Shown here in pieces: positions 42,380 through 61,714 of a stretch of DNA of 64,000 nt (positions within the stretch are counted from its first letter, which is position 1; the number at the start of each line of letters is the position of its first letter). The DNA comes from Paracholeplasma brassicae (GTDB taxonomy: Bacteria > Bacillota_I > Bacilli_A > Acholeplasmatales > UBA5453). Below the pieces are notes generated by a model, which saw only the letters and a list, made by a program, of their open reading frames with translations, was not told the origin of the DNA and made no database searches. The stretch lies in NCBI RefSeq assembly GCF_000967915.1, contig NC_022549.1, positions 62,001 to 126,000 on the forward strand, given 5' to 3'. A program made the translations under genes and the position numbers.

Positions 42380-42424
42380 AAACCAGCAAGTGCAGAGTTT
42401 ATCTAGGCACTTGCTGGTTTTATT
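42380..42424. terminator. Bidirectional terminator between wecB and the deoR-type gene
   Basis: A 14-bp stem (42380-42393 with 42407-42420) with a 13-base loop. It serves both converging genes; T runs lie on both strands. Confidence 0.85.
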
Positions 42425-43293: not shown

Positions 43294-43306
43294 TAAATGA
43301 TATCAT
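43277..43306 (+). promoter_or_regulatory. Promoter of the rhamnose operon
   Basis: TTGACT (43277-43282) and TATCAT (43301-43306) are separated by 18 bases, and a TTCAATCAC operator lies inside the spacer. It is the only clear promoter seen before the 20-kb gene series. Confidence 0.65.
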
Positions 43307-43326
43307 CAAGCTGCGAGGTAGATGGC

Positions 43327-44784
43327 ATGATTTCTAAATACTTATCAATCGATATTGGTGCCTCAAGTGGTAGGGCTGTGGTTGTCATTAAAGACAAACA
43401 AACCCTAAGACTCGATGAGGCTTACCGATTTAAAACTAAATCGTATGAAAAAGAAGGACTTCATTACTGGGATTTTAATGATGTATTTAAAGAAGTCGTC
43501 ACAGGGATTGAAAAAGCGTTCTTTTTACATGAAGATATTAAGTCGATTGGAATCGATACGTTTGGTGTCGATTATGGACGACTAGATCAGAACGGTACTC
43601 TGACAAGTGATCCTCTATGTTATCGTAACAAGCGTTTTATCGAATCATCTACGTTGTTTCATGAATCGTATTCGAAAGAAACACTATACAGTTTAACTGG
43701 TATACAGTACTTACCATTTAATACAATTTATCAGTTATACGATCATGCAAGGCATAATCAATTAAATAATTCAGAGACTATATTATTACTTCCTAATCTG
43801 ATTGGGTACTTCTTAACCGGAAACAAGCAAACCGAAGTCACAAATGCTTCAACCACTGCACTATATGATTCTAGAACAAATAGATTTGTTGAAACACTCT
43901 TTGAGGTAGACAAGCAAAAGGATTCATTTGCTTCACTTGTCAACCCAGGCGTGATTCTTGGTGAAACCCTAGAGACCTTTAACTTTCCAAAGACACCGGT
44001 CATTAACGTGTGTTCACACGACACTGCTAGTGCCTTTGTATCAACTAAGATACTTAAGAATCAAGCCTTGATCAGTTCTGGGACTTGGAGTTTGGTTGGC
44101 ACACTCTTATCTAAACCCAAACGAAGTAAAGAAGCACTTAGGTGTAACTTTACAAACGAACTAGGGTATTTAGGACAAACCAGGTTCCTAAAAAACATCA
44201 TGGGTATGTGGTTAATTAACGAATCAAGAAGTGAGTTAATGAAAAGTAATGAAGATCTCTCTTTTTTTGATTTAGAAAAGAAAGCGATTTCATCAGAACC
44301 TTTTCTAGCTTTTATTGATCCTGATGATGAAATATTCTTAACCAAAGGCAGTATGATAGAGCGTATGAGAACATACCTAGAAAAGACGAATCAAAACATT
44401 CCTATTAAGACTGAAGGGATGCTTCGAGTGATTTATGAAAGTCTAGCATTTAAATACCGATACACCATTGAACAACTAGAAAAAGTGCTTCAAAGACCAA
44501 TGGATGAGATACTCATCATTGGTGGAGGCAGTCAATCAAAATTATTAAATCAAATGACGGCGAATTTTTGTAAGAAACGAGTCATCACCGGTGCGGTTGA
44601 AGCAACCGTCCTTGGTAATTCAATCGTTCAGATGCATTATTTTAAAGAGATAAAGACAATCAAGAGTGGACAAACCTTAATTGAAAAATCATTTAAGGGG
44701 ACGGTTTATGAACCAACCGAATGTGAGGCTTGTGAAGAAGCCTACGAACGCTTTCTAAAACTAATTGAAGGGGATAAGTCATGA
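43327..44784 (+). CDS. rhaB: Rhamnulokinase
   Basis: A 485-residue FGGY-family kinase: LSIDIGASSGRAVV at the start, GIDTFGVDYGRLD (near 78), CSHDTASAFV (near 228) and IIGGGSQSKLLNQMTA near the C-terminus. It phosphorylates L-rhamnulose at O1. The ATG at 43327 has GAGGT seven bases upstream; an in-frame ATG at 43297 lies at the -10 box and is rejected. It is the first gene of the rhamnose operon and overlaps rhaA by ATGA. Confidence 0.93.
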   Translation: MISKYLSIDIGASSGRAVVVIKDKQTLRLDEAYRFKTKSYEKEGLHYWDFNDVFKEVVTGIEKAFFLHEDIKSIGIDTFGVDYGRLDQNGTLTSDPLCYRNKRFIESSTLFHESYSKETLYSLTGIQYLPFNTIYQLYDHARHNQLNNSETILLLPNLIGYFLTGNKQTEVTNASTTALYDSRTNRFVETLFEVDKQKDSFASLVNPGVILGETLETFNFPKTPVINVCSHDTASAFVSTKILKNQALISSGTWSLVGTLLSKPKRSKEALRCNFTNELGYLGQTRFLKNIMGMWLINESRSELMKSNEDLSFFDLEKKAISSEPFLAFIDPDDEIFLTKGSMIERMRTYLEKTNQNIPIKTEGMLRVIYESLAFKYRYTIEQLEKVLQRPMDEILIIGGGSQSKLLNQMTANFCKKRVITGAVEATVLGNSIVQMHYFKEIKTIKSGQTLIEKSFKGTVYEPTECEACEEAYERFLKLIEGDKS

Positions 44785-46007
44785 CAAATTATGAATTAGC
44801 AAGAAAAGCCTATCAAGAAATAGGTGTGGATACCGAAGAAGCGATTAATGCCTTAGGGAAAGTTAGACTATCCTTACAGTGCTGGCAAACCGATGATGTG
44901 AAAGGTTTTTTATTTAAAGACAATGCGTTAACTGGTGGGATTCAAGTCACGGGTAATTATATAGGACGGGCAAGAAACCCACAAGAAGTCAAAGATGACT
45001 TAAGTTTGGCCTTATCATTAATCCCAGGAAACCACAAAGTCAATCTTCATGCAATCTATGCCGATACAAATGAAGTCATTGACCTAGATCGAATTGAGCC
45101 AAGACATTTCAAGCCTTGGGTGGATTGGGCAAAAAAAGAACATATTGGACTAGACTTTAACCCGACGTGTTTTTCTCATAAGAAATCAAGTGATGGGTTT
45201 ACACTAAGTCATCCAGATCAAAACATTAGAGACTTTTGGATAAAACACTGCATACAAAGTAGAAAAATCGGGGCATACTTCCAAAAGGAATTAAAACAAC
45301 CCTCAGTCGTGAATTTATGGATTCCAGATGGGTTTAAAGACAATCCCTATGATTTAATCACACCGAGGGTGAGATTAAAAGAATCCCTTGATGAGATTTA
45401 TCAAGAAAAATTAGATGTAACAGATGTCATGGAGTCAAAACTATTTGGGATAGGTGCTGAAGCCTACACGGTAGGCTCTCATGAGTTTTATTTAAGTTAT
45501 GCACTCCTAAACAAGTTAGGTGTTTGTTTTGACACAGGACACTTTCATTTAACAGAGTCTGTGGCAGATAAGATTGCATCACTTAGTGTGTTTAATCAAA
45601 CACTCTTACTACATGTCTCAAGACCAGTTAGATGGGATTCAGACCATGTTGTAATATTTGATGATGAAACCAGTAAGATTGCACAAGTGCTAGTAAGAGG
45701 TAACTTACTAGATAAAGTGCATATTGGTTTTGACTTCTTTGATGCGTCAATCTCAAGAGTGAGTGCCTTAGTCATTGGGGCGAGATCATTTCAATTAGCA
45801 TTAATGAAAGCTTTACTAGAACCAAAAGAAGCACTAACAAGCATTGAGTTTAATAAAGATTACTCAAAACGTCTTTATTACCAAGAGATGTTAAAAGGAC
45901 TACCTTATGGTGTTGTCTATGATGAATTCTTAAAGCGTCATCACTGTGAGTCTCAACACACTTGGTTTGATAAAGTAAGGGCTTATGAAGAAAGATTGGA
46001 TAGGTAA
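44781..46007 (+). CDS. rhaA: L-rhamnose isomerase
   Basis: A 408-residue TIM-barrel isomerase that converts L-rhamnose to L-rhamnulose. It shows LSLQCWQTDDVKGF near residue 30, VNLHAIYAD, LDFNPTCFSH (near 131), WIPDGFKD and VCFDTGHFHLTE (near 250), with metal-binding Glu/Asp/His residues in family positions. The length fits RhaA. It overlaps rhaB by 4 bases and is followed directly by rhaD. Confidence 0.95.
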   Translation: MTNYELARKAYQEIGVDTEEAINALGKVRLSLQCWQTDDVKGFLFKDNALTGGIQVTGNYIGRARNPQEVKDDLSLALSLIPGNHKVNLHAIYADTNEVIDLDRIEPRHFKPWVDWAKKEHIGLDFNPTCFSHKKSSDGFTLSHPDQNIRDFWIKHCIQSRKIGAYFQKELKQPSVVNLWIPDGFKDNPYDLITPRVRLKESLDEIYQEKLDVTDVMESKLFGIGAEAYTVGSHEFYLSYALLNKLGVCFDTGHFHLTESVADKIASLSVFNQTLLLHVSRPVRWDSDHVVIFDDETSKIAQVLVRGNLLDKVHIGFDFFDASISRVSALVIGARSFQLALMKALLEPKEALTSIEFNKDYSKRLYYQEMLKGLPYGVVYDEFLKRHHCESQHTWFDKVRAYEERLDR

Positions 46008-46011
46008 ATAT

Positions 46012-46824
46012 ATGAATGAATTCTTAAAAGCGGATTTTATAAATGAAATTGGACGAACTGCTGATCAAATGTATCAAAATGGATGGCATGAACGTAACAG
46101 TGGTAATATTTCTTATTTACTGACGGGTAGTGAACTAGATTTAGTTAGAGACTTAAAAGGCATTAGAGTAATCGAACTTCAATGTGAAGTCAAAGACTTA
46201 GAAGGTAAATGCTTTGTTGTGACAGGCTCAGGTAAATACATTAAAAATATTTCAAGAGACCCGCTCTTAAACCTTGGGGTTATTCGGGTATTAAAGGGCG
46301 GCAAACAAGTCGAAATTTTAGGTGGTTTTAAGGATGGTGGTAGACCCACATCCGAATTAAGTACTCACCTACTCACACATCAAGAACGTTTAAGACAAGA
46401 TCAAGCACATAAAGTCGTCATTCACACCCATGCGACAAACATCATGGCAATGACGTTTGTTCATGAATTAAATGATCGTAGTTTCACAAGAAGCTTATGG
46501 CAGATGTGTACAGAATCGATTGTGGTATTTCCTGATGGGGTGGGTATCTTGCCTTGGATGTTATGTGGTAACGAACGTATTGGTTATAAAACAGCTGAAA
46601 AGATGAAGAACCATCGTTTAGTCGTTTGGGCAATGCATGGGGTGTTTGCCTCAGGTAGTTCACTTGATGACTGTTTTGGTTTAATTGAAACGGTTGAAAA
46701 ATCGGCTCAAATCTATTTGATGACCTTAGGTAAACAAATGGTTAATACGATTGAAGACTACCAGTTAAAAGAACTAGCAGAGACATTTGAAGTCAATTAT
46801 AAAAAGGAGTATCTAGATGTATGA
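46012..46824 (+). CDS. rhaD: Rhamnulose-1-phosphate aldolase
   Basis: A 270-residue class II aldolase. The N-terminal GWHERNSGNIS phosphate-binding motif (near residue 25), TGSGKYIKNI, HTHATNIMA (zinc ligands) and MHGVFASG (third His) are all present. It splits L-rhamnulose-1-phosphate into DHAP and L-lactaldehyde, so DHAP joins glycolysis as in the glp pathway nearby. The ATG at 46012 follows GGATAGG and gives the normal N-terminus; an in-frame ATG at 45985 inside rhaA is less likely. Its stop overlaps the next gene by ATGA. Confidence 0.93.
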   Translation: MNEFLKADFINEIGRTADQMYQNGWHERNSGNISYLLTGSELDLVRDLKGIRVIELQCEVKDLEGKCFVVTGSGKYIKNISRDPLLNLGVIRVLKGGKQVEILGGFKDGGRPTSELSTHLLTHQERLRQDQAHKVVIHTHATNIMAMTFVHELNDRSFTRSLWQMCTESIVVFPDGVGILPWMLCGNERIGYKTAEKMKNHRLVVWAMHGVFASGSSLDDCFGLIETVEKSAQIYLMTLGKQMVNTIEDYQLKELAETFEVNYKKEYLDV

Positions 46825-48194
46825 GACAAAGTAAGAAACTCTTATTATTCATCACACTAATTCTACTAGTCTTTGGCTTGGCTTCTTGTCAAAAAGACGC
46901 AAAACCGCCAGTCTATGAGGAAGACCTGACGATGCATATTGGTGCTTGGGTTTCCCCAAGCACGGTAAAAGACGAAAATGGTAATTATAAATACATTACC
47001 CTTGAACAATACCAACGGATTAAAGATTCAGGGATTAATGTGATTTACGCTTTGTATGAACACATTGATCTAAATGCGACACTGCTTGCGCTTGATTTAT
47101 CTGAACAAGTCGGTATTGAATACTACGTGAGAGATTCAAGGATTGCGGGTTTATTTCAAGACATCTTTGATTCAAATGGCAATGTGATTCAAAGTGAGTA
47201 TGAGGACGACCTAGAAATCTTCTTAAATGCGATTGAAACTTATAAGGATCATCCGGCATTTAAAGGGCATTTGATTGTGGATGAGCCAAGTGCTGATTTA
47301 TATCAGTGGTTAGGTTTTTATCATGAGGTCTACCAACAATACTTACCAGATAAAGATTTCTATGTGAACTTATTTCCAACATACGCTAGCCTTGCGGCAC
47401 GAGGTGACAGGGATTATGAGGATTATATTGGAGAATACATTGATGTGGTAAAACCAAAATTTGTTTCTTATGATCATTACCCTTTAATGTTGTTTTATGA
47501 AGAATCTGTTTTAACCGATGATTATCTATTAAACCTAGAGATAGTTGCGACAAAGTCAAAAGAAGCGGGACTACCATTTTGGTTATTCTTACAAAGTGTC
47601 GGGTATTTTAATATCACAGGGACACAACGTAGAGACATCACAGAAGCAGACTTAAGGTTTCAAAGTGCGGTAGCGATGGCTTATGGCACTAAAGGTATCC
47701 AGCACTTCACGTACTGGACACCAGATAGTGGTGGCATTGAATCCTTCTCGGATGCCTTTATTGATAAAGATGGCGAAAAAACACCAACGTATGATGCAGG
47801 TACTAAAGTGAATCATGAAATTTTGAGTTTTGATCACGTGTATTTGAGTTTTGATTGGCAATCGGTGATGACGTATTCAACCACACCCGATTTTCCAAAC
47901 ACCAACTTTCGAATGATCAACAAAGAAGAATCACATAAGCGTATCAAGAGCTTTAAAGGCACCGAAGACGTTTTAATGGGGACCTTTAAAGGACAAAACA
48001 AAGAAGATGGGTTTATGGTGGTTAATTTCACAGACCCAGCGTTTGGTAAATCAAACGATGTAACAATCACATTTAATGACGCAACGCATGCGCTTGTCTA
48101 CATTGATGGGGTTGAACAAACCGTGAAGTTAAATAAAGGCAAACTCACACTAAACTTAGCAAGTGGATCTAGTGCGTTTGTGATTCCATACTAA
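46821..48194 (+). CDS. Putative TIM-barrel glycoside hydrolase lipoprotein, paralogue 1
   Basis: A 457-residue lipoprotein with lipobox LASC near residue 23. A barrel-like domain (residues 35-340) has HIGAWVSP, GINVIYALYE, YYVRDSRI, LIVDEPSADL (candidate acid/base Glu in DEP near 155), YVNLFPTYAS, FVSYDHYPL, LPFWLFLQS and AYGTKGIQHFTYW. A short beta domain follows (350-457). The pattern resembles clan GH-A-type hydrolases, but I cannot assign a family. Two paralogues lie in the same operon (53911 and 55286). It should act at the outer membrane face on a rhamnose-containing glycan. Confidence 0.7.
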   Translation: MRQSKKLLLFITLILLVFGLASCQKDAKPPVYEEDLTMHIGAWVSPSTVKDENGNYKYITLEQYQRIKDSGINVIYALYEHIDLNATLLALDLSEQVGIEYYVRDSRIAGLFQDIFDSNGNVIQSEYEDDLEIFLNAIETYKDHPAFKGHLIVDEPSADLYQWLGFYHEVYQQYLPDKDFYVNLFPTYASLAARGDRDYEDYIGEYIDVVKPKFVSYDHYPLMLFYEESVLTDDYLLNLEIVATKSKEAGLPFWLFLQSVGYFNITGTQRRDITEADLRFQSAVAMAYGTKGIQHFTYWTPDSGGIESFSDAFIDKDGEKTPTYDAGTKVNHEILSFDHVYLSFDWQSVMTYSTTPDFPNTNFRMINKEESHKRIKSFKGTEDVLMGTFKGQNKEDGFMVVNFTDPAFGKSNDVTITFNDATHALVYIDGVEQTVKLNKGKLTLNLASGSSAFVIPY

Positions 48195-48210
48195 GAATGA
48201 GGGAGAATAT

Positions 48211-49545
48211 ATGAAAAAAGTTGTATTAGTACTACTGAGTATTACCTTAACCTTGAGTCTTGCTGCTTGCGGCAAGAAGAAAGAAGATTCTGGTAAAGAG
48301 CGATTAGTCATCGCGTTTGCTGAGGCGGGTTATGGTAGAGGATGGCTAGAAAATTTAAAGACCGCGTTTGAAGCGGAAAATGAAAACGTTGAGATTGTCC
48401 TTGATGGCAATCCAAACATGACCGCGAATGCGGGACCAAAGATTGAAAGCGGTAGAGATCTAGCTGACATTTATTTCTTATTAGAAACAAACTGGCAGCG
48501 CTGGGCAACCAGGGGTTATTTAGAACCACTAGATGATCTTTATGAGATGGAGACTGAGCCAGGGGTAACCTTAGAGGATAAACTCATTGACGAAGTCGTT
48601 GAGTTTGGACGTATTGGCGACAATATTTACGCCCTACCTTGGAATGATGGCGTCACTGGCCTTGTGTATAACTCAAAGATGTTTAGAGACAAGGGCTGGG
48701 AAGTACCAGAAACAGTCAATGATCTAATTGATTTAACTGAGCAAATCAAAACCGAAGGTGCTGGTGTTAAGCCATTCACATGGCCTGGGCAATATTCAGC
48801 TTATTGGAACTTTGTGGTCTACGGTTGGTGGGCACAATACGAAGGCTTAGAAGCCATGAATGAGTTTTATCAGTTTGAATCCCCTGAGGTATTCAAACAA
48901 GAAGGCAAGTTAAAAGCATTAGAAGCTTATGAAACTTTAATTGGTGATCAAAGTAACAGTACAGCAGGTGTGAATGGTTTAATTCACACACAAGCTCAAA
49001 TGCAGTTTATCAATGGGTTTGCGGCAATGATTCCTAATGGTTTATGGATTGAATCTGAAATGAAAGCGGCACTACCTGCTGGATTTGAAATGAAGATGAT
49101 GCCAATTCCTACGATTGAAGGGGCAAAAGAACCAAAAATCAATAACTCAATGCTTGGTGATTTTATTGTGGTACCTAAACAAGCAAGAAATAAAGAACTT
49201 GCTAAAGAATTTTTGAGATTTATGGCAGAAGACAAACAATTACTACAGTATACAAAAGACACAGGCACACCAAGACCATTTGAATATGATCCAACTACAA
49301 TTGAAGGATTAAGTCCATTTATCTTAAGTGCATTAGAAATATGGAAAAACAGTAAGAGTTTTTATATCATCTCAAAGAGTCCGCTTTATTATGGTGTGTA
49401 TGTCAATACATTCCCTAAGAGTGGGGCACCTTATGGGGATATTTATTTAGGAGAAGAATCGGCACAGTCGGTTTGGAATGGGGACTACCAATACGTTTTC
49501 GAACGTTGGGATGAATTCAAACGAAACGCAGGCATGACTGATTAA
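48211..49545 (+). CDS. Family 1 sugar-binding lipoprotein of the rhamnose-glycan ABC importer
   Basis: A 444-residue lipoprotein (lipobox LAAC) typical of CUT1-type binding proteins: FEAENENVEIVLDG near residue 50, LADIYFLLETNWQRW, YALPWNDGVTGLVYNSK (near 132), FAMIPNGLWIE-like and LGDFIVVPKQA segments. It captures oligosaccharides and delivers them to the two permeases whose genes lie downstream. A GAGGGAG ribosome site precedes the ATG. Ligand identity (rhamnose-containing oligosaccharide) is inferred from the operon only. Confidence 0.88.
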   Translation: MKKVVLVLLSITLTLSLAACGKKKEDSGKERLVIAFAEAGYGRGWLENLKTAFEAENENVEIVLDGNPNMTANAGPKIESGRDLADIYFLLETNWQRWATRGYLEPLDDLYEMETEPGVTLEDKLIDEVVEFGRIGDNIYALPWNDGVTGLVYNSKMFRDKGWEVPETVNDLIDLTEQIKTEGAGVKPFTWPGQYSAYWNFVVYGWWAQYEGLEAMNEFYQFESPEVFKQEGKLKALEAYETLIGDQSNSTAGVNGLIHTQAQMQFINGFAAMIPNGLWIESEMKAALPAGFEMKMMPIPTIEGAKEPKINNSMLGDFIVVPKQARNKELAKEFLRFMAEDKQLLQYTKDTGTPRPFEYDPTTIEGLSPFILSALEIWKNSKSFYIISKSPLYYGVYVNTFPKSGAPYGDIYLGEESAQSVWNGDYQYVFERWDEFKRNAGMTD

Positions 49546-49562
49546 AATTAGGAGTTTAGCGG

Positions 49563-50555
49563 ATGACAAAAAATCGTATCAGACAACAACTAAATCGGTT
49601 TAAACATTTTTTGGTAGAGACGTTTGAGAATGTCTTTAGACTAGACAAATCGTACAAGGCAAAAAGAAGAAGACAAAAACGATTCTTCATCTTCATGATG
49701 CTTTTCTTACCAGTGACGCATTTCCTTGTTTTCTTTGTTTACGTGAACATTGATACGATTATTTTATCCTTTCAACGATTTGATTATTACACAGGGGACT
49801 ATAAGTTTGTTTGGTTTGAAAACTATCAACAAGTCATAAGAGATTTAAGAGAGTTACCTCAAATGAAACAAACGGTGATCAATTCGTTTATGTTCTTACC
49901 GATTACCAATTTTATTACCCTACCATTATCAATTATTAGTGCGTATTTCATCTTTCGAGGTGTGCCTGGTAGAGGGCTATTTAAAGTACTCTTTTTCCTA
50001 CCATCCATCATATCGATTGTGGTACTCACAATGGCATTTCAATTCATGTTTGATCCTTTGTTTGGACCAATAAACCAATTACTCGCTGAATTAGGCATTC
50101 AGCCAGTGGGTGGTTGGTTTGGGACAAAGGGGACAGCCATGAACATGGTTTATCTTTACTGTATTTGGGCAGGTATCGGATTTAACATGGTCTTAATCAA
50201 TGGTGCCATTTCAAGACTTCCAAGTGAAGTCATTGAATCAGGCAGACTTGATGGGGTATCTATGTATACTGAATTAACTAAAATCATCATTCCAATGATT
50301 TGGCCTACCATCACAACCCTGTTTGTGATAGGCACAACGGCGGTGTTTACGATCTTCTTGCAAATTCTACTATTAACCAATGGTGGACCAAGTGGTTCAA
50401 CAAAAACAATCGCGTATCTCATTGTAGAGATGGTACAATCGGGGGATTATACCACACCTGCAGCGTTTGGAATGATATTCACATTGGTGGCGATTCCTTT
50501 AATCATGTTCATTAAGTGGGGCATGGAAAAAATAGGAGAAAACGTTGAGTATTAG
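49563..50555 (+). CDS. ABC sugar permease, MalF/UgpA type
   Basis: A 330-residue membrane protein with a basic cytosolic N-terminal extension and six hydrophobic segments. The EAA-type ATPase contact loop is visible as EVIESGRLDGVSMYTELTKI (about residues 223-242). It forms the import channel with the permease encoded at 53075. The carbohydrate-binding protein gene at 50603 interrupts the usual permease-permease order. No ATPase gene is in the operon; CUT1 systems often use one shared MsmX-type ATPase encoded elsewhere. Confidence 0.9.
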   Translation: MTKNRIRQQLNRFKHFLVETFENVFRLDKSYKAKRRRQKRFFIFMMLFLPVTHFLVFFVYVNIDTIILSFQRFDYYTGDYKFVWFENYQQVIRDLRELPQMKQTVINSFMFLPITNFITLPLSIISAYFIFRGVPGRGLFKVLFFLPSIISIVVLTMAFQFMFDPLFGPINQLLAELGIQPVGGWFGTKGTAMNMVYLYCIWAGIGFNMVLINGAISRLPSEVIESGRLDGVSMYTELTKIIIPMIWPTITTLFVIGTTAVFTIFLQILLLTNGGPSGSTKTIAYLIVEMVQSGDYTTPAAFGMIFTLVAIPLIMFIKWGMEKIGENVEY

Positions 50556-50563
50556 GTATTAAT

Positions 50564-50584
50564 GGTATCTAAGGATACCTTAAA
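50564..50584 (+). other. Small intercistronic hairpin
   Basis: GGTATC/GATACC with a 4-base loop, followed by a weak TTAAATA. It lies between the first permease and the surface protein gene and could tune downstream expression or be an mRNA processing site. Confidence 0.35.
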
Positions 50585-50602
50585 TAAAAAGAGGAGAAAA
50601 AA

Positions 50603-53047
50603 ATGCGAAAGATTAGTTTCATCAAAAAGAGTTTGTTAGCAGTACTATTCTTATTTAGCGTGAGTTCTGTGTTTGTATTCACAAGCCACGCAGCAGTGAT
50701 GAGCGAAACCTTTTTAAATGATTCATTCGATGGCGGAATGAATGATGAAAAATGGCAAGTCGTCAATGACACAACAGAAGCCATCGGCTATTTAGGCGAT
50801 GCAGGTACACTACGTTACGTTGATACAACCGGTGCAGAAGAAGTCATGATGACCACAAACCCACTCACCTCAGGTGAAGGTGTGACAGGGTATAGTGTTG
50901 AGTTTGATTTCTTATACCAGTCTGCCGATTGGGGCGACTGGTTTGGGTTTGCATTTAACAAAACAGAAATTGTAAAAGGGTTAGATTGGGGTAAAGGCGG
51001 TTACTTAATGGGCCGTATCTCAAGCCTTCAAATTAATAACCCAAGCGACACCGTCGATGGACCAAGTTCGGCTTCACCAAATGCATTAACGACGTTTGAG
51101 GAAATGACACCTTCGGTTGCAAGCATTGCAAACGTCAATGTCAGATTCAAATTCGTTTATACAACAGCGACAAAGAAATTAGAGCTTTATTACGATAAAG
51201 TTTCTGAGACAATGGATATGTCAACCTTAAGAAACACCTTTACGTTCGGTAGCTTATCCTTAGAAGAAGATTATCATTTTGCGATTGTCTCATCAAGTAA
51301 GGGGTTATATGAACTCGATAACCTAAAGATTGAAAAATTAACCGCTACTGAATCAATTCTTTATGTTGAGTCAGATTTTGAATCTGCTGAACTACCAGAA
51401 GAAATAACGTTGGCCGTTTCAGATAAATTCTCATATGGTCCAGCAAAAGCACTTGATTTAAATAATCCAGCGCTAGGCGCAATGATTCTATCAAAAAACC
51501 CAGTGGTGGTTAATCCAAACGTGGATAAAAAATTACATATGGCTTACCAACAAAATCTAACTCAACTTGATCTAGATAAAAAGACCGGTGTTGTTTATGG
51601 TGTTGAAGCCTTAACAGACACGTTAGTCACTGAAGGTGTGGTTCATATTTATTTTGTTAATCGTGACGTAGCAGGCACACCAACGACATTCATTGGTGCA
51701 ACCATGGGCGATGGCGAAGCATTAGTTCAAGTTCTTGCGGAAAGATCGCTTGACTTAAACTTAGCAAGTACTGGTTATATTGATGTTGAGTTATCATTTG
51801 GTGCATTTAATAATGTTCATGTGAACTTAGCTGATTTAAAGCATTACGACTTTAAAGCAGGCGCTACCATTGGTCACTTCGGTTTTACTGGTGAGGTAGG
51901 CACAAGACTACTTGTCGATAACTTTACATCAAAAGCATATACCTATTATGATCAAAGTCAAGCACCTGATTTAGCTGAAAACTTTGAAACAAGTTACCTA
52001 GATTCAAACCTTTGGGAAATCTATAACTCGAAAGACCTTCGTCCAGGCACTGAGATGCCATTATTCCCAACCACTAAAGGCATCTACATTGAAAATGGTA
52101 AGTTAAACTTTGATGTGGCTGGTGAATCAGCTCGTTTAATCACGAAACACGATTACGCGAATGTTGAGGTTCGTTTCTCATTAGAAGATTTTAATCAACC
52201 AATCACGCCAAGAAATGAAGATGGCGAAATTGGTGGGGTTGAAGTACCTACAACTTATTATGTAGCATTAAGCTTTGGTTATGAATCTACCTTACAAAAC
52301 TTCTGGAATGTACCTACTATTATTTTCCAAGCCAGAGATGGTGGGGCAGTGATTTATACACTTAACATGAATGATGCAACCGTGTATTCGGTTGATACGG
52401 CATTACTGCTAAGTGCGGATGAAAACAAAGATGAAACATTTGAGTTTAAAGTGATCGCTTTAAATGGAAAAGTTTCCATTTGGATGAAACGTGCCTCAGA
52501 CCCAGTCACATTATTTGATGGTGCACCACTGTTAACCTACGAAGACGTCAACACCAAAGGTCGTGTGGCACTTGCTTCAAGTGCGTCTGGTTCATTTAAA
52601 CTTGATGACGTGAGTATCGTTAAAATGGGTGGCGAGTTCTCAAAACCTGAAATCACTGATTCAGTAGATCCTATGACACTTGTCAAACCAGTCATTACCA
52701 TAAATAACACAAAACCTGTACAGTTTGAACAAAACAGCACAGACGTCGTTGATTTAAAAACGTATTTTACAGTAACAGATAATAAAGACAGCATTACAAT
52801 TACCGATCAAATGATCAACAATGGTGGGTTTGACTTAACAAAAGTGGGTCAATACACCATAAGCTTAACCGTGACAGATAGTGATGGTAATCAATCGGTT
52901 GAACATGTCATCTTAAGTGTTTATCCAGAAGTGCCTGAAGCACAAAAGTCAAATACAGCTTTAGTGGCCTCACTTACCAGTGTGGTTGCACTTGGTGTTG
53001 GTTTTGGTGTGGCATTTGTCGTGTTTAAGAAAGTTAAAAAAATCTAA
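50603..53047 (+). CDS. Surface-anchored carbohydrate-binding protein with Ig-like domain
   Basis: An 814-residue protein with an N-terminal signal peptide (cleavage likely after SHA near residue 31). Three LamG/concanavalin-like jelly-roll domains (about 32-250, 255-455 and 460-680) contain motifs such as DSFDGGMNDEKWQV, YELDNLKIE and SFKLDDVSIV. An Ig-like DUF5011-type domain follows (about 700-780), then a C-terminal membrane helix with a VFKKVKKI tail. No LPXTG motif is present, so it is anchored by the helix. It probably gathers polysaccharide near the importer. Its gene lies between the two permease genes. Confidence 0.75.
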   Translation: MRKISFIKKSLLAVLFLFSVSSVFVFTSHAAVMSETFLNDSFDGGMNDEKWQVVNDTTEAIGYLGDAGTLRYVDTTGAEEVMMTTNPLTSGEGVTGYSVEFDFLYQSADWGDWFGFAFNKTEIVKGLDWGKGGYLMGRISSLQINNPSDTVDGPSSASPNALTTFEEMTPSVASIANVNVRFKFVYTTATKKLELYYDKVSETMDMSTLRNTFTFGSLSLEEDYHFAIVSSSKGLYELDNLKIEKLTATESILYVESDFESAELPEEITLAVSDKFSYGPAKALDLNNPALGAMILSKNPVVVNPNVDKKLHMAYQQNLTQLDLDKKTGVVYGVEALTDTLVTEGVVHIYFVNRDVAGTPTTFIGATMGDGEALVQVLAERSLDLNLASTGYIDVELSFGAFNNVHVNLADLKHYDFKAGATIGHFGFTGEVGTRLLVDNFTSKAYTYYDQSQAPDLAENFETSYLDSNLWEIYNSKDLRPGTEMPLFPTTKGIYIENGKLNFDVAGESARLITKHDYANVEVRFSLEDFNQPITPRNEDGEIGGVEVPTTYYVALSFGYESTLQNFWNVPTIIFQARDGGAVIYTLNMNDATVYSVDTALLLSADENKDETFEFKVIALNGKVSIWMKRASDPVTLFDGAPLLTYEDVNTKGRVALASSASGSFKLDDVSIVKMGGEFSKPEITDSVDPMTLVKPVITINNTKPVQFEQNSTDVVDLKTYFTVTDNKDSITITDQMINNGGFDLTKVGQYTISLTVTDSDGNQSVEHVILSVYPEVPEAQKSNTALVASLTSVVALGVGFGVAFVVFKKVKKI

Positions 53048-53074
53048 TTAAAGATAAATAAGTGGGGTTAAAAA

Positions 53075-53914
53075 ATGAAACAGTCGTTTACAGAAAAAGT
53101 TATATTAGGTATTGTGTTTGTCATCTTTACAGCTTATGCAATATCCTTAGTGTTCCCATTTGCGTGGGCACTAATCAATTCGTTTAAAACGAGTGTGGAG
53201 TTTTTTAACATCGATAACGTCTGGAAAATACCATCAAAATGGATGGTTTCCAACTACGTGAATGTGTTATCCGAATATGAAATCGGAAAGATGTTTTTAA
53301 GAAGTATCTACGTAACGGTGGCGGGTACCGGCCTTGCGGTCATGATGTCTGCCACCACCGCTTACGTGGTTAGTAAATATGAGTTTAAGTTAAGAAACCT
53401 AATTTATATTACTGCAGTGACTGTGATGGTCATTCCAACAGTAGGCTCATTATCTGCAACCTTTAAGTTGGTCAATAACCTAGGGCTTTACAACAACCTG
53501 TGGTTATTTCCAATCATTTATGCGGGTGGTTTTGGGTTTGGCTTCTTATTACTCTATGCGTATTTTAAAGGTATTTCTTGGACTTACGCAGAAGCGGCTT
53601 TTGTTGATGGGGCTACTGATTTTGATGTGTTCTTCAAAATCATGATTCCTCAAGCAAAACCAGCACTTGTCGCGTTAGGGATTATCCAAGGGATCAATGT
53701 GTGGAATGATTTCTTTGCCCCATTTATGTTTATCCCAGAAAAAAAGACATTGGCGGTTGGGTTGCAAGATTTAGTTAACATCATGCAATACCGTGCCGAA
53801 TGGCCAAAGATGTTTGCGGCAATGATTATTTCAGCGTTACCGATTATTATTGTATTTGTCATATTCCAAAAGACAATTATGGAAAATACTGTGGCTGGAG
53901 GGTTAAAAGGATGA
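53075..53914 (+). CDS. ABC sugar permease, MalG/UgpE type
   Basis: A 279-residue protein with six hydrophobic segments. The EAA loop reads YAEAAFVDGATDFDVFFKI (about residues 171-189). It ends with MENTVAGGLKG, a common C-terminus for MalG-type subunits. It pairs with the permease encoded at 49563. Its stop overlaps the next start by ATGA. Confidence 0.92.
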   Translation: MKQSFTEKVILGIVFVIFTAYAISLVFPFAWALINSFKTSVEFFNIDNVWKIPSKWMVSNYVNVLSEYEIGKMFLRSIYVTVAGTGLAVMMSATTAYVVSKYEFKLRNLIYITAVTVMVIPTVGSLSATFKLVNNLGLYNNLWLFPIIYAGGFGFGFLLLYAYFKGISWTYAEAAFVDGATDFDVFFKIMIPQAKPALVALGIIQGINVWNDFFAPFMFIPEKKTLAVGLQDLVNIMQYRAEWPKMFAAMIISALPIIIVFVIFQKTIMENTVAGGLKG

Positions 53915-55302
53915 GTCAAAGAAAACATTTAATCTTACTATTAATGGCACTTTTGGTGCTAACGGTTTCTGCTTGTGGCAAAAAAGAAAAAAAAGAAGAA
54001 GAGAAACCCTATGAGTTTAACTTAAGTGAAACGCCTGTTTATAAATATCAGTTTTGGAATCAAGACCAAGACAGTTTACCGATTGGGGTTTGGTCAGATC
54101 CACCAGCAGCTAATTTCGCTGGTATCTATAACAACCCAGATTTAATCAATGAACAACAATACGCATGGATTAAAGAATCCGGTGTCAATGTGGTTTATGG
54201 TCTATATAATAACATCGTCCTAAATAAAGAAGATGTGATGAGGTCACTTGATTTATCAGAACAATACGATATTACCTATTTGGTTAGAGATTCTCAAGTG
54301 ACAGGCTCCTATGATGACGACGACATTGAGCTATTAAGAAATACATTAAACCTTTATAAAGAGCACCCTGCTTTTGGCGGATCGATGGTGGTAGATGAAC
54401 CGGGTACGGCAAGTTTTGCTAATCTTGGAAATCTTCATAAGAACTATCAAACCATCGTCTCTGATCGTGCGTTTTATATTAATATGCTACCAAACTACGC
54501 AAGTAAAAACCAATTGGTTAATGGTGCGGTTGGTGGTACATTAAATGATTCATCGATTACTTACGAACGTTACATGAACGCCTACATCGATCAAGTCAAA
54601 CCAGAGTTCTATTCGTATGATTTTTACCCATTTGTGGGTATGGAGTATGCAAAAATGCGTAGTGGGTATTTCGCACAAATGGCACAAATCAGAGAAATTA
54701 CATTAAATGCTGGGATTCCATTTTGGACATTCATCCAAGCATCGAGCTGGGCACCAAGTTCGCTACGTGTGCCAAATCAAACAGAAATCTACTGGCAGGT
54801 CGCAACCTCTATCGCTATGGGTGCCAAGGGGATTCAATACTTTATGTATTACACCTCGATGGAACAAGGTGCGGAATCGTTTAGCGGTGGAATGGTCGAT
54901 CAAAACGGCAATAAAAACCCAATGTATGATTACGTGAAAAACGCAAACATACATTTAAAGACGATTGAATCAATCATCATGAACGCCTCAAACGAAGGTG
55001 TGATGGTTCATGGGGATTCACCTGATGAAATACCAACTAGTGTGATTAAAACAACCTATAGTGGCCTTAATCACTTAAGTGGTGATGACATGCTTGTTGG
55101 TTTATTCAACTATAAACAAAAGCCAGCCTATTACGTAGTTAACAATTCATTAACGAACCTAAGTGGTAGTCACACAATCACCTTTGATCAAGCATTTACA
55201 ATCAATGTCTATGAAGGCAGTCAAATGAGAACCATTACAACAAATGAGCTAACGCTTACAATTGGAGCAGGAGAGGGTGTATTAATTGAAATCGTATCTT
55301 AA
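53911..55302 (+). CDS. Putative TIM-barrel glycoside hydrolase lipoprotein, paralogue 2
   Basis: A 463-residue lipoprotein (lipobox VSAC near residue 22), the closest relative in build to the protein at 46821. Shared features are PIGVWSDPP, GVNVVYGLYN, YLVRDSQV, MVVDEPGTAS (candidate catalytic Glu), YINMLPNYAS, FYSYDFYPF, IPFWTFIQAS, IYWQVATSIAMGAKGIQYF and a C-terminal beta domain. Start 53911 (ATGA overlap with the permease, lipoprotein signal right behind it) is chosen over an in-frame ATG at 53800 inside the permease gene. The outer-face location suggests primary attack on the glycan. Confidence 0.7.
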   Translation: MSQRKHLILLLMALLVLTVSACGKKEKKEEEKPYEFNLSETPVYKYQFWNQDQDSLPIGVWSDPPAANFAGIYNNPDLINEQQYAWIKESGVNVVYGLYNNIVLNKEDVMRSLDLSEQYDITYLVRDSQVTGSYDDDDIELLRNTLNLYKEHPAFGGSMVVDEPGTASFANLGNLHKNYQTIVSDRAFYINMLPNYASKNQLVNGAVGGTLNDSSITYERYMNAYIDQVKPEFYSYDFYPFVGMEYAKMRSGYFAQMAQIREITLNAGIPFWTFIQASSWAPSSLRVPNQTEIYWQVATSIAMGAKGIQYFMYYTSMEQGAESFSGGMVDQNGNKNPMYDYVKNANIHLKTIESIIMNASNEGVMVHGDSPDEIPTSVIKTTYSGLNHLSGDDMLVGLFNYKQKPAYYVVNNSLTNLSGSHTITFDQAFTINVYEGSQMRTITTNELTLTIGAGEGVLIEIVS

Positions 55303-56434
55303 GGCATTTCCATTTCTAAATGAAGGACAAATGCTGATTGGTGCGTGGATAGCCCCACCGCACCAACTAGAAAATTTAAAAAGTAATTTTAATACACTAG
55401 AACAATACCGTCTAATCAAAGAAGCAGGCATTAATACCATATATGGGCTTTATGAAACACCAGAAAAAGAGCCGGTTGAGGTGCTTAAAGCAATTAGTTA
55501 TGCTAAAGAGGTTGGGATTTCTTATTTGGTTAGAGACCCAAGAATTGAACATACAACCTCAAGTGAACAACTCAATCTTCAAACAAAGTCTTATTTAAAA
55601 GAAGCCGCTGGCATTCTAGTCTATGACGAACCGGGCATTGAACAATATAAGCGTCTTAATACGCTTTATAATGACTTTAAGACGTTATACCCAGATAAGT
55701 TATTCTATGTGAACTTAATGCCCTTACACGCGAATCAAAACCAGTTGTACTGGGGCGCATGGCGTGGGGCTGAAGAAGCCTTAGAAGAGGTTGATGCACT
55801 TAGGTATTACAAAGACTACATCAAAGCATTAAAACTACCTTATCTGTCTTATGACTTCTACCCATTTGAAGGTGAATTTCCAAGCATAAGAAGTGACTAC
55901 TTTGAACAGTTAAAACTCATTTATGAGCTAACCAAAGAAGCCTCACTCATACCGATTTGTTTTATTCAAACGTGTTCGTTTAACACACACGTTAGAATTC
56001 CAAACAAAACAGAAGTGTTATGGCAAGTGAATACCTCACTCGCCTATGGCACCAAAGGCATTCAGTATTTTACGTATTTCTTACCTGAAAATAATCACCT
56101 TGAACAATTTAAAGGGGCAATAATTAACCATGAGGGAAAAAGAACACCGCTTTATGAGGCAGTAAAAGATATTAATCAGTGGGTAAACCAAATCGGCAGG
56201 TACTTAATTGACGCCGAGGTGATTGAAATCAATCATACAGAAGACGTGATAAAAACGACCCTTAATCATAAAGGTGAAACCTACTTATTTTATTGTAACG
56301 CCTCACTTGTAAAGAGAATGACGTATCAATCAAACATAAATGAATCAATCATTAGTCAAAATCAAGCAACCCCTGGTGCACTTATCACGCTAGAACCAGG
56401 AGAAGCAATCTTAATCAAAAGGAGCGAAACATGA
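55286..56434 (+). CDS. Putative TIM-barrel glycoside hydrolase, cytosolic paralogue 3
   Basis: A 382-residue protein without signal peptide, which begins at TTG behind AGGAGAGGGTG inside the end of the previous gene (17-base overlap). The barrel motifs match its two lipoprotein paralogues: LIGAWIAPP, GINTIYGLYE, YLVRDPRI, ILVYDEPG, YVNLMPLHAN, YLSYDFYPF, VLWQVNTSLAYGTKGIQYF. The absent signal suggests that it works on imported oligosaccharides. The pairing of outside and inside versions of one enzyme family supports a shared linkage specificity. Confidence 0.7.
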   Translation: MKSYLKAFPFLNEGQMLIGAWIAPPHQLENLKSNFNTLEQYRLIKEAGINTIYGLYETPEKEPVEVLKAISYAKEVGISYLVRDPRIEHTTSSEQLNLQTKSYLKEAAGILVYDEPGIEQYKRLNTLYNDFKTLYPDKLFYVNLMPLHANQNQLYWGAWRGAEEALEEVDALRYYKDYIKALKLPYLSYDFYPFEGEFPSIRSDYFEQLKLIYELTKEASLIPICFIQTCSFNTHVRIPNKTEVLWQVNTSLAYGTKGIQYFTYFLPENNHLEQFKGAIINHEGKRTPLYEAVKDINQWVNQIGRYLIDAEVIEINHTEDVIKTTLNHKGETYLFYCNASLVKRMTYQSNINESIISQNQATPGALITLEPGEAILIKRSET

Positions 56435-57693
56435 AAAAAATCTTAGTGGCTTTAATTGCATTACTTAGTTTATCGTTAATGTCTAATCGCCTTCAAGCAG
56501 AAGAAGTAAGTTGGGAAAAAACATTTGTTGAAGATTTTGAAGGCTACGACAACGGAAAAGTAGAAACACAAGAAAACTTTACAGATAAATGGACCAATGA
56601 CGGTTGGTCAGGGATAAACCCTAACCCAACCGACATTAACGATGTAGCAACCATTAGAAGTGAGAACTCAAATAAGTTCATGAACATGACTTACGCGAGT
56701 AGTTTCTTTTATATGGCCCCAACCAATTTTCGTGCAAACGAATTCGAGGTCGAATTTGATTTTCGTAGTAACGATTTAACCGATGCTTGGGTTGGCGTCA
56801 ATATGCGTAAAGAATACCGTGACATTCGTTATAACGGTGGCACAGGGATGATGTTTTATTTTAAAACTATCTACGTTAAAAACTTAGAAGGCGACATCAT
56901 TGGTGAATCACTACTGATTCAATCCTTAAGAGGTGGGTCACTTAGCACGACCGATCTTGATTCACTACTCGTTGGTGATCGTTTGATCGAATACATTTAC
57001 CCAGAAGGTGAAGCAATCGATCCTACCAAACAAATCAAATCCAATTGGTATAACGTCAAGATTAAAGTGACTAACACAGATAATGCCAATGAATCTTTAT
57101 ATGAAATCTTTATTAACGATGTAGCGATGGCAACACTGACTTACGCAAGAGCCTCCATTAATGTGTATGGCTATTTTGGACTACACTCATGTACTGGTGA
57201 TATTGATGTTGATAACTTCAAGATTCAATCACTTGATGAAGTCGCACCGCCACCAATTGTCAGAGTCAATCAAATGATTGAACCCACAGGTAAAGTAGGC
57301 GATGTCTTTGAAGTCCCAGGTAGTGATGAAAAAGACCTTGAGCTGATTGATGATGCCGATGGTAAGGTCACAATTCAAGTGACATTACCGAACCAAGAAA
57401 TTATCACTTTAGAGGAAGGGGTTTATCAGTTTACACCAACACTTGCGGGCATTCATACCCTAAGCTATGTGGCAGAAAACCAATCAGGTACGAAAGCTCA
57501 AGTGGATTTCTTAATTAACGTGGCTGAAAAAGATGACCCAGTCGATCCTGATCCTGTTGATCCAGACCCGGTTGATCCGAATCCAGATAAACCAGAAGAA
57601 GAAAGTAATATAGGCTTGATCATTGGCTTATCAGTCGGTGGGCTAGCCATCATCGGTGCTGGTGTGTACTTCTTTGTATTAAAAAAGAAATAA
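56431..57693 (+). CDS. Surface-anchored carbohydrate-binding protein with Asp-Pro linker
   Basis: A 420-residue protein with a signal peptide (cleavage near LQA, residue 23), a LamG/concanavalin-like domain (about 25-270, ending CTGDIDVDNFKIQSL) and an Ig-like domain (about 275-365). A linker of repeated VDPDP units (about 370-390) follows, then a C-terminal membrane helix with a KKK tail. There is no LPXTG. It resembles the 814-residue surface protein in plan and probably binds the same polysaccharide. It overlaps the previous gene by ATGA. A hairpin follows. Confidence 0.72.
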   Translation: MKKILVALIALLSLSLMSNRLQAEEVSWEKTFVEDFEGYDNGKVETQENFTDKWTNDGWSGINPNPTDINDVATIRSENSNKFMNMTYASSFFYMAPTNFRANEFEVEFDFRSNDLTDAWVGVNMRKEYRDIRYNGGTGMMFYFKTIYVKNLEGDIIGESLLIQSLRGGSLSTTDLDSLLVGDRLIEYIYPEGEAIDPTKQIKSNWYNVKIKVTNTDNANESLYEIFINDVAMATLTYARASINVYGYFGLHSCTGDIDVDNFKIQSLDEVAPPPIVRVNQMIEPTGKVGDVFEVPGSDEKDLELIDDADGKVTIQVTLPNQEIITLEEGVYQFTPTLAGIHTLSYVAENQSGTKAQVDFLINVAEKDDPVDPDPVDPDPVDPNPDKPEEESNIGLIIGLSVGGLAIIGAGVYFFVLKKK

Positions 57694-57760: not shown

Positions 57761-59902
57761 ATGTTTCAAAACGCAAAATGGATTTGGCATCATAACATAA
57801 TACAAAAAAATGACTATGGTGTGTTTGTTAAATCATTTGAAGTCGATCGTTTTAATAAAGCCATTCTAAACATTAGTGGACATAACCACATCAAACTCTA
57901 CATCAATGATAAATTAATCTCAGGATACGTCACACCTGCCCCTAGTGGGCTTAACCCAAAAAGCTATTTGAGCTATGATGTTTCAAAAGACTTATTAGAG
58001 GGAAACAACACCATTAAAGTGGTGGTGCTTTATTTAGGAGGTAGTGGACAAAACTATCAAAACGGGATCCCTGGGTTTATTTTGAATCTAGAAATCGAAG
58101 AAGAGGCTGGTGTTAGACACATTTTAAGTGATGAGACGTTTTCATCCATTAAGAATCACCCTTATGTGACAGGCCAACCATTCCAACAAAACAGACGAAT
58201 CACACCAGTAGAACGGTTTGATTCATCTAAACTTGACGAGGGGCCCATTCATGAACCGGTTTTAGTGTTGGAAGGTTATCACAACTACCGTAAACAAACC
58301 ATCAAAGAAGGCATCGTTCATAAGACATATGAACCACGCCTTTTAAGTCAATCAAATACGGTTTATGTGTTTGATGCAGATAGAATCGTTAGTGGCTTTG
58401 TAGGACTTGATATACTTAGTCAAACAAATCAAGTCCTTAGGGTAAGGTATAGTGAAGACCTTGATGGTGACCGTGTTAAACACAATGTCGCAAACGAGCC
58501 CAGTGAAACTTACTATGATGAACTCATCTTAAAAAAAGGGATGAGAGTGTCTCACGCGTTTGACTTTACGTATAAAGCGTTTCGCTATGTGGAGGTTGAA
58601 GGAAACTTAGACGAACTTGAATCGTTTTCTTTAAAGGTGGAAGTCGCATCAACGGATTTAGGTATAGTTGGTGATTTAAAGAGCAAGTCTTATCCAATGA
58701 TTACTGATCTGTTTACGCTATTTAAGCACACACAAACCAATAACACCCTTGGATTATTGGTGGATTGTCCACACCGTGAACAAGCACAATACTTAGGCGA
58801 TAGTGCGCTTCAAGCAGAATCAATTGTTTATAATGTATTAGAAAGAAAACCGTTATTAGAAAAAGTATTAGATGACTTTATGGACGCGCAGTATGCGGAC
58901 GGTACATTTCCATTTGTCAGTCCTGGTAGTACTAATGATGAGGAGTTTTCACTTAAAATTCCCGAATACGATTTGTATTTTATTGAACTCTTAGAAAAAA
59001 GGTATCAAATCGATTTAGACCAGAAAATTCTACATCGTTATTACGAGGCATCAAAGAAAGTGATTGATCACTACATTTCTAAAATCGATGAACAAGGGCT
59101 TGTTAGAAAAAATGAACACTGGCATATTTCAGATTGGCCATACCCGAGTGTGGATCAAGAGGGAGATTACTTATGTTTTGAAAACATGCACTTTCATAAA
59201 AACTTAAGCTCATTTATCAAGTTATATCAAGATAGAATCGATCAAGATTATTACCGAAAATTAAAAGACAAGCTATATCTAAGAATAAGAGAAGTGTTTT
59301 TAGAGCGTGAGTTATTTAAAGATCACGAAAAGGCGGCTTCTTACCACCAAGGCATTCAAGCATTCGCGCTCAATCATGGCTTTGTTTTAGATAGTGAGTT
59401 AGATGCGGTCATTACCTACATTAAACAAAGCGGGTTTTCCTCTAGCATCATTTTAGGTAGAGACGTGGTTCATGCTTTATTGAAGTCAGGGTATACTAAA
59501 GAAGCGCTTGATTATATGTTTAATTACGAAAAAGGCTGGGGAACGATTTTAAGACATGGGTCTAAGACAATGTGGGAAGGGTTCGATGATATTGAGTCAC
59601 ACAGTCATGCCTGGGGCATGTATGTGGTAAGACTCATTCAAACCTACCTTGTAGGTATAAACGTCATTAATCCGGATACTTATATCATTAAGCCAATCAT
59701 GATCGATGAGGTTAAAGATATAGCGGCAACAATTGTCACTGAACGTGGGTTATTATCTTTTTCTTACGAGGTTAAAGAAAGTGACGTCATTTATACGTAT
59801 GACATACCTTTGGGGATACAGGTGAGTTTAATACACAATCAATTAACGTTTAACTTGAAGTCAGCAGGTATCTTAAAATGCAAAAAAGAGTCTGTCGTAT
59901 GA
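57761..59902 (+). CDS. GH78-like alpha-L-rhamnosidase
   Basis: A 713-residue cytosolic protein. Two N-terminal beta-sandwich domains (about 1-290) lead into an (alpha/alpha)6 barrel (about 310-640). It has DCPHREQAQYLGDSALQAE near 338, the GH78 acid region where the usual motif is DCP.R.E..GW.GD, and a late WEGFDDIESHSHAW motif (near 610) seen in GH78 and relatives. The final beta domain is short. It would cut terminal rhamnose from imported oligosaccharides, feeding rhaA-rhaB-rhaD. GAAGGTG precedes the ATG. Specificity within the clan is not certain. Confidence 0.8.
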   Translation: MFQNAKWIWHHNIIQKNDYGVFVKSFEVDRFNKAILNISGHNHIKLYINDKLISGYVTPAPSGLNPKSYLSYDVSKDLLEGNNTIKVVVLYLGGSGQNYQNGIPGFILNLEIEEEAGVRHILSDETFSSIKNHPYVTGQPFQQNRRITPVERFDSSKLDEGPIHEPVLVLEGYHNYRKQTIKEGIVHKTYEPRLLSQSNTVYVFDADRIVSGFVGLDILSQTNQVLRVRYSEDLDGDRVKHNVANEPSETYYDELILKKGMRVSHAFDFTYKAFRYVEVEGNLDELESFSLKVEVASTDLGIVGDLKSKSYPMITDLFTLFKHTQTNNTLGLLVDCPHREQAQYLGDSALQAESIVYNVLERKPLLEKVLDDFMDAQYADGTFPFVSPGSTNDEEFSLKIPEYDLYFIELLEKRYQIDLDQKILHRYYEASKKVIDHYISKIDEQGLVRKNEHWHISDWPYPSVDQEGDYLCFENMHFHKNLSSFIKLYQDRIDQDYYRKLKDKLYLRIREVFLERELFKDHEKAASYHQGIQAFALNHGFVLDSELDAVITYIKQSGFSSSIILGRDVVHALLKSGYTKEALDYMFNYEKGWGTILRHGSKTMWEGFDDIESHSHAWGMYVVRLIQTYLVGINVINPDTYIIKPIMIDEVKDIAATIVTERGLLSFSYEVKESDVIYTYDIPLGIQVSLIHNQLTFNLKSAGILKCKKESVV

Positions 59903-61710: not shown

Positions 61711-61714
61711 GGTT

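Follow-up and report, generated by a model that had tools for sequence, protein, structure and literature searches.

What reaction do three related proteins encoded beside the rhamnose genes of Paracholeplasma brassicae carry out, and on what kind of glycan? The proteins, here called FamA, FamB and FamC, are encoded in a 64,000-nucleotide stretch of this genome (NCBI RefSeq assembly GCF_000967915.1, contig NC_022549.1, positions 62,001 to 126,000 of the forward strand; the whole stretch is called the window), within a ~21 kb locus that also holds rhaB/A/D, an ATP-binding cassette (ABC) importer, a GH78 rhamnosidase, a DUF4838 protein and an acetylesterase (Table 1, numbered from the first nucleotide of the window). 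A preliminary description of this DNA, made from the sequence alone, proposed that they are paralogous TIM-barrel hydrolases that match no known glycoside hydrolase (GH) family. The profile and model comparisons presented here place them as distant relatives of GH42 that appear to lack a carboxylate at the position of the GH42 nucleophile, and the absence of this attacking residue suggests a different chemical route of cleavage.

Three paralogs with an ordered set of motifs

The three proteins are paralogs that are homologous along the entire barrel, as had been proposed. Their similarity is far above chance in pairwise BLASTP comparisons (FamA and FamB, 32% identity over 450 positions, E 1e-66; FamB and FamC, 35% over 346, E 3e-60; FamA and FamC, 33% over 309, E 7e-43), and the same motifs occur in identical order in each. 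In FamA these motifs fall at G41/W43, D154-E155-P156 and Y181.N183..P186 in the first half of the protein, and at S216-Y217-D218.Y220-P221 and G289.K291-G292-I293-Q294.F296 in the second.

The earlier view that two of the proteins are exported lipoproteins and that the third lacks a signal agrees with inspection of the N-termini, which located lipobox signal sequences in FamA (LFGLASC) and FamB (LTVSAC) and no signal sequence in FamC. A longer open reading frame from 53800 is also listed for FamB, but of the two starts it is the one at 53911, which gives the lipoprotein, that is credible. The TTG start that had been assigned to FamC, at 55286, is the sole start that retains the stretch FPFLNEG ahead of IGAW (QMLIGAW). 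It is supported by a Haloplasma relative (L010) that has an equivalent stretch, FPHLDED, at the matching place ahead of TMPIGAW and that likewise overlaps the preceding gene; the alternative ATG, at 55331, is weaker.

A distant relationship to GH42

Scanning of GTDB genomes collected 74 loci that encode members of this family, from which 97 sequences were aligned. Against the Pfam GH42 model (PF02449, gathering score 21), FamA and FamB score above the cut-off at 30 and 33.1 bits (E-values for these two proteins of 5e-8 and 4e-7) with a match confined to the second half of barrel and profile, and FamC scores below it (15.3 bits). When the family profile was compared with the GH42 profile by hhalign, the match was much stronger (98.3%, E 1.6e-14), with the family DE aligned with NE and FIQ aligned with MEQ. 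GH42 was also the top match of the family profile among PDB sequences (E 5.7e-6), with nothing closer; a PDB search with the FamA sequence alone gave no match.

The TIM barrel, whose absence the preliminary description had named as grounds for abandoning its proposal, is present in the AlphaFold2 model of FamB (predicted local distance difference test score, pLDDT, 94.3), and clan GH-A structures are the closest to it. In this model the barrel is followed directly by a C-terminal β-sandwich, and strands 4, 6, 7 and 8 end at DE, SYD, FIQ and GIQYF. VIA-align ranked GH42 first (5e9a, Z 27.9, root-mean-square deviation 3.3, 350 aligned), followed by GH164 (Z about 24) and a β-1,2-glucosyltransferase. 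Foldseek placed other GH-A type barrels on top (PslG), so the evidence for putting GH42 first among the barrels comes from the profile comparison and VIA-align; GH20 and GH123 structures were not among the best rows of these fold searches.

Of the features that define GH42, the family has the sequence similarity and lacks the Asn-Glu pair, the β7 Glu and the trimerization domain, for which the 382-463 aa proteins gave no Pfam match at E<=1 and which is absent from the FamB model. Of those that define clan GH-A, it has the (β/α)8 barrel and the strand-4 Glu and lacks the strand-7 Glu. As judged from profiles and the model, this is a real, broadly distributed and distant relative of GH42 that lies within or beside clan GH-A. 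It is set apart from the GH families with which its profile and fold were compared and is apparently unassigned; a search for a GH42-like family without a nucleophile found nothing in the literature that was covered. The earlier statement that no known family could be matched thus holds for membership of a characterized family and has to be amended in that GH42 is a clear distant relative.

An active site that appears to lack the strand-7 carboxylate

In both GH42 and GH164, the catalytic pair consists of a Glu on strand β4, the acid/base, and a Glu on strand β7, the nucleophile (PMC7105311). The first of these has a counterpart in the Asp-Glu pair that ends strand 4 in all 94 family sequences covering the site, whereas the GH42 sequences have Asn-Glu there (12/12). 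The second does not: the nucleophile column holds Ile, Val, Ala, Leu or Met in almost every member and Glu in 1 of 97. Strand 7 aligns with GH42 without gaps between a conserved Pro-Phe and the Gln; when DUF4434 is used as the template, the register moves by one and Gln or Leu occupies the site. On these alignments a carboxylate is missing from the strand-7 site in either register (present in at most 1 of 97 sequences). The loss of the β7 nucleophile, together with the invariant Asp that precedes the acid/base, is the main oddity of the family and was missed by the preliminary description.

An ordinary, divergent GH42 β-galactosidase with a misaligned nucleophile would agree with the FamA and FamB scores above the Pfam gathering score; given a gapless strand 7, the result in both registers, the absent trimerization domain and the change from Asn-Glu to Asp-Glu throughout, this explanation is scarcely credible. 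A barrel that has lost a key catalytic residue could also be a pseudoenzyme or a non-hydrolytic, glycan-binding surface protein, in keeping with the two copies that are surface lipoproteins adjoining a solute-binding protein (SBP). We regard this as very unlikely: the Asp-Glu pair is invariant across six phyla, a cytoplasmic branch has been kept, and binding alone would not call for an acid/base that never varies.

Two catalytic carboxylates had originally been proposed, the DEP Glu and the Asp of the SYD motif. The position of the former, matching the GH42 acid/base, is in line with that proposal. The latter (FamB D237) is nearly invariant (95/96), yet most of the GH42 sequences examined also have an Asp in this column (SWDNYP), as well as the Tyr of SYD.YP, and it is doubtful as a second catalytic acid because GH42 shares the column and uses the β4 and β7 Glu. 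Its conservation would suit a classical retaining enzyme whose nucleophile has been relocated to this Asp or to a loop-borne carboxylate, an arrangement made improbable by the GH42 Asp, which is not the nucleophile there, and by the motif blocks examined, in which no further invariant acid was seen. Inverting enzymes, which require no nucleophile, could use the three near-invariant carboxylates (D162, E163 and D237 of FamB) with the DEP Glu as the acid and the DEP Asp or the strand-6 SYD Asp as the base that activates water, and an Asp/Glu dyad is also found in the inverting barrel GH71. We consider inversion unlikely in this family, as the SYD Asp of most GH42 proteins examined, which are retaining, need not be a new base; no inverting enzyme is known in clan GH-A.

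A possible substrate-assisted mechanism

The explanation that we find most plausible, and hold tentatively, is that FamA, FamB and FamC belong to an uncharacterized, GH42-related family of glycosidases without a nucleophile, in which the DEP Glu would be the acid/base and the C2 group of the sugar, most likely N-acetyl, would assist. The Glu would serve as general acid/base, as in GH42; neighboring-group participation by the C2 substituent of the released sugar would replace attack by the enzyme; and the DEP Asp, in place of the O2-contacting Asn of clan GH-A, would hold or polarize that substituent. With an N-acetyl group the reaction would pass through an oxazolinium intermediate with net retention, as in GH20, GH84 and GH123. 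It is also possible, and is put forward with more reserve, that a GH-A/GH42 scaffold lost its nucleophile, converted its O2-binding Asn to a catalytic Asp and, in a widespread bacterial family with the fold unchanged, switched from covalent double displacement to C2-group catalysis.

The Asn that precedes the acid/base in GH164 hydrogen-bonds O2 of the bound sugar (PMC7105311), so the DEP Asp should face the C2 substituent, and an Asp at this place fits either a 2-acetamido group (oxazolinium) or a 2-hydroxyl (1,2-anhydro sugar). In the second case the Asp would deprotonate O2 and the Glu would protonate the leaving group of a 1,2-trans-diaxial sugar such as α-L-rhamnose or α-mannose, with formation of a 1,2-anhydro sugar, a route that has been proposed for GH99 (PMC12394665). 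The missing nucleophile and the Asp over O2 suit this chemistry equally, and the window locus is a rhamnose locus. Like the family, GH99 and GH71 are barrels that have two acids as a dyad and lack a classical nucleophile, but their dyad is spaced i, i+3 where the loop that follows strand 8 begins (PMC12394665), whereas that of the family lies at strand 4; no conserved i, i+3 acid pair was found near GIQYFTYWTP (strand 8) in the family alignment. Profile comparison gave no support for a relationship to GH99 (hhalign 2.8%, against a poor template of two GH99 rows, one apparently mistranslated), and 2 of 71 members reach E<0.01 with the GH99 Pfam model PF16317. In addition, rhaBAD or GH78 was not found beside most relatives in tallies of neighboring genes, and the importers point to N-acetylhexosamine (HexNAc), which together make participation of a 2-hydroxyl rather unlikely.

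The acetamido version is favored because the SBP is of the HexNAc-oligosaccharide type. The best solved relative of the window SBP is Blon_0883 (E 3.5e-33), which binds galacto-N-biose and lacto-N-biose, that is, galactose β-1,3-linked to N-acetylgalactosamine or N-acetylglucosamine (GlcNAc) (PMC12345172). Of the HexNAc contacts of Blon_0883, W290 and E294 are kept in the window protein and E327 is replaced by Asp; the galactose contact D210 is replaced by Ser. Across the loci examined, 11 of 11 family-linked SBPs score best with TIGR03850 or TIGR03851, the latter being NgcE (GlcNAc/chitobiose), and in three Paenibacillus genomes with >110 SBPs each, the family-linked SBP ranks first, first and second for the NgcE profile. 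By sequence, these proteins appear to resemble binders of HexNAc oligosaccharides at every locus examined, which is an indication of the substrate and not an assignment because all of the matches fall under the curated cut-offs of the HexNAc families.

Besides these sub-threshold scores, several observations weigh against an N-acetyl-assisted reaction. The Trp that contacts HexNAc is common among other sugar SBPs, and rhamnose is the only monosaccharide whose pathway is encoded in the locus. Neighborhoods beyond Bacillota are uninformative; Pfam tallies of neighbors in Bacillota and other phyla consist mostly of housekeeping or unannotated genes with little substrate information. One member, L015 (7974-9257), is alone in having a Glu (FEQ) in the column of FamB I275, a place taken by Asn, Cys or Val in the relatives of its group, and L063 has a Glu in the adjacent column. 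Where the Asp and Glu side chains would lie with respect to the sugar is deduced from the alignment, sequence similarity to GH123 is not detectable, and the activity is a prediction for every member of the family.

Organization of the locus

The gene order is DeoR regulator, rhaB, rhaA, rhaD, FamA, SBP, permease, anchored surface protein, permease, FamB and FamC, followed by a second anchored protein, GH78, DUF4838 and the SASA esterase. In the proposed pathway, FamA and FamB would cut, at the cell surface, an acetylated glycan that contains rhamnose and a HexNAc, pieces of which would enter via the ABC importer; FamC, the GH78 rhamnosidase, the DUF4838 enzyme and the acetylesterase would complete breakdown in the cytoplasm, and RhaA/B/D would consume the rhamnose.

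Table 1. Genes and putative active-site features of the rhamnose/glycan locus (window coordinates)
Feature	Position	Strand	Remarks
DeoR-family regulator	42423..43184	-	
rhaB, rhaA, rhaD (rhamnose catabolism)	43297..46824	+	Named by sequence and gene order
FamA	46821..48194	+	Predicted exported lipoprotein, GH42-like TIM barrel, 457 aa
FamA D154-E155-P156	47280..47288	+	Barrel strand 4 end; putative dyad, Glu putative acid/base
FamA L257-Q258	47589..47594	+	Barrel strand 7 end; site of GH42 nucleophile Glu
ABC importer SBP	48211..49545	+	Best solved relative binds Gal-β-1,3-HexNAc
ABC importer permease 1	49563..50555	+	Order relative to FamA/SBP conserved
Surface protein	50603..53047	+	C-terminal Ig-like stretch and membrane anchor; conserved in locus
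ABC importer permease 2	53075..53914	+	Locus conservation
FamB	53911..55302	+	Predicted exported lipoprotein, GH42-like TIM barrel and C-terminal β-sandwich, 463 aa; structure modeled
FamB D162-E163-P164	54394..54402	+	Strand 4 end
FamB S235-Y236-D237-F238-Y239-P240	54613..54630	+	Strand 6 end; Asp and Tyr largely shared with GH42
FamB I275-Q276	54733..54738	+	Strand 7 end; nucleophile site without carboxylate
FamC	55286..56434	+	Predicted cytoplasmic paralog, TTG start, 382 aa
FamC D114-E115-P116	55625..55633	+	DEP motif
FamC I227-Q228	55964..55969	+	Strand 7, without carboxylate
Membrane-anchored protein	56431..57693	+	Conserved in locus
GH78-type α-L-rhamnosidase	57761..59902	+	No signal peptide
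DUF4838 protein	59878..61710	+	No signal peptide; low-confidence model resembles GH20/GH84 hexosaminidases
SASA-type carbohydrate acetylesterase	61685..63676	+	

Foldseek matches of the DUF4838 model are mainly to GH20/GH84, whereas VIA-align left it tied among many GH5-type barrels; the likeness to hexosaminidases lends weak support because the pLDDT of this model is only 68. A PDB sequence search with this protein gave nothing useful, and a search on DUF4838 function found nothing in the literature that was covered, where a single paper names the domain. The DUF4838 protein is conserved alongside GH78, the SASA esterase or the GH42-like family in four other loci (L011, L024, L061 and L153). 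The two anchored surface proteins have no clear Pfam match and are kept in syntenic loci; they are possible glycan binders. The locus (42423-63676) has no ABC ATPase gene of its own and is flanked by genes with which the bacterium makes its own polysaccharide, namely a WecB-like gene upstream at 41275 and glycosyltransferases further downstream (in L143).

Distribution and evolution of the family

The family has representatives in Bacillota, Mycoplasmatota, Actinomycetota, Bacteroidota, Calditrichota and Abditibacteriota (taxa as labeled in the records, some of which are bins of metagenome-assembled genomes, MAGs). Two supported groups emerge in the tree, the first with FamA and the second with FamB and FamC. 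Since both groups hold Clostridial and Haloplasma relatives, the paralogs are old. The family is present in only 3 of 150 genomes of the order of P. brassicae, and none of the six other species searched in the genus has it, a rarity that suggests gain by transfer. A Haloplasma contractile MAG shows synteny from FamA through GH78 (L153), with a rhaA homolog farther along; Clostridia and Bacilli carry partial copies of the locus, and the cytoplasmic branch is seen again in L010, L011 and L004.

Two further arrangements were observed. A short Abditibacteriota contig (L056:438-8468) carries five family copies in tandem. In a genome of the same taxonomic family as P. brassicae (G011, locus L157), two copies lie with an ABC importer, a dihydrodipicolinate-synthase-like aldolase and, by eye, an apparent sialidase-type (BNR) protein, which we judge by eye to be a different substrate context.

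Significance and comparison with known families

This would be a new family of carbohydrate-active enzymes in six phyla, for which a marginal GH42 match is at present the only coverage. With it one could test directly how substrate assistance can take the place of a covalent nucleophile in a glycosidase, and its characterization would reveal the glycan that these importer loci target.

With GH42 (PF02449; PDB 5e9a) the family shares a TIM barrel with a C-terminal β-sandwich, the strand-4 acid/base Glu, xxDxYP on strand 6, the strand-7 Gln and A.GA..I.YF in the strand-8 region; in addition to the active-site and domain differences described above, its members have 380-460 aa, compared with about 680 in GH42, and their Pfam match is restricted to the second half of the barrel. 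The GH164 β-mannosidase Bs164 has a similar GH-A barrel and differs in having Asn-159/Glu-160, Glu-297 and a trimerization domain (PMC7105311). DUF4434 (PF14488) gives a weak profile match (94.9%, E 4e-8) and, in the same alignment, retains the strand-7 Glu where the family has Gln.

Among enzymes that work without a nucleophile, the GH20 and GH84 hexosaminidases, which have an acidic pair, are possible working analogs; their Pfam models do not match the Fam proteins. GH123 (DUF4091) N-acetylgalactosaminidases were considered as true relatives and rejected (hhalign 0.2%; no Pfam match to DUF4091 or GH123_cat). They do, however, have a consecutive Asp-Glu motif like the invariant DE of the family, and in GH123 this pair is a demonstrated dyad for substrate-assisted catalysis with no enzyme nucleophile (PMC11087588).

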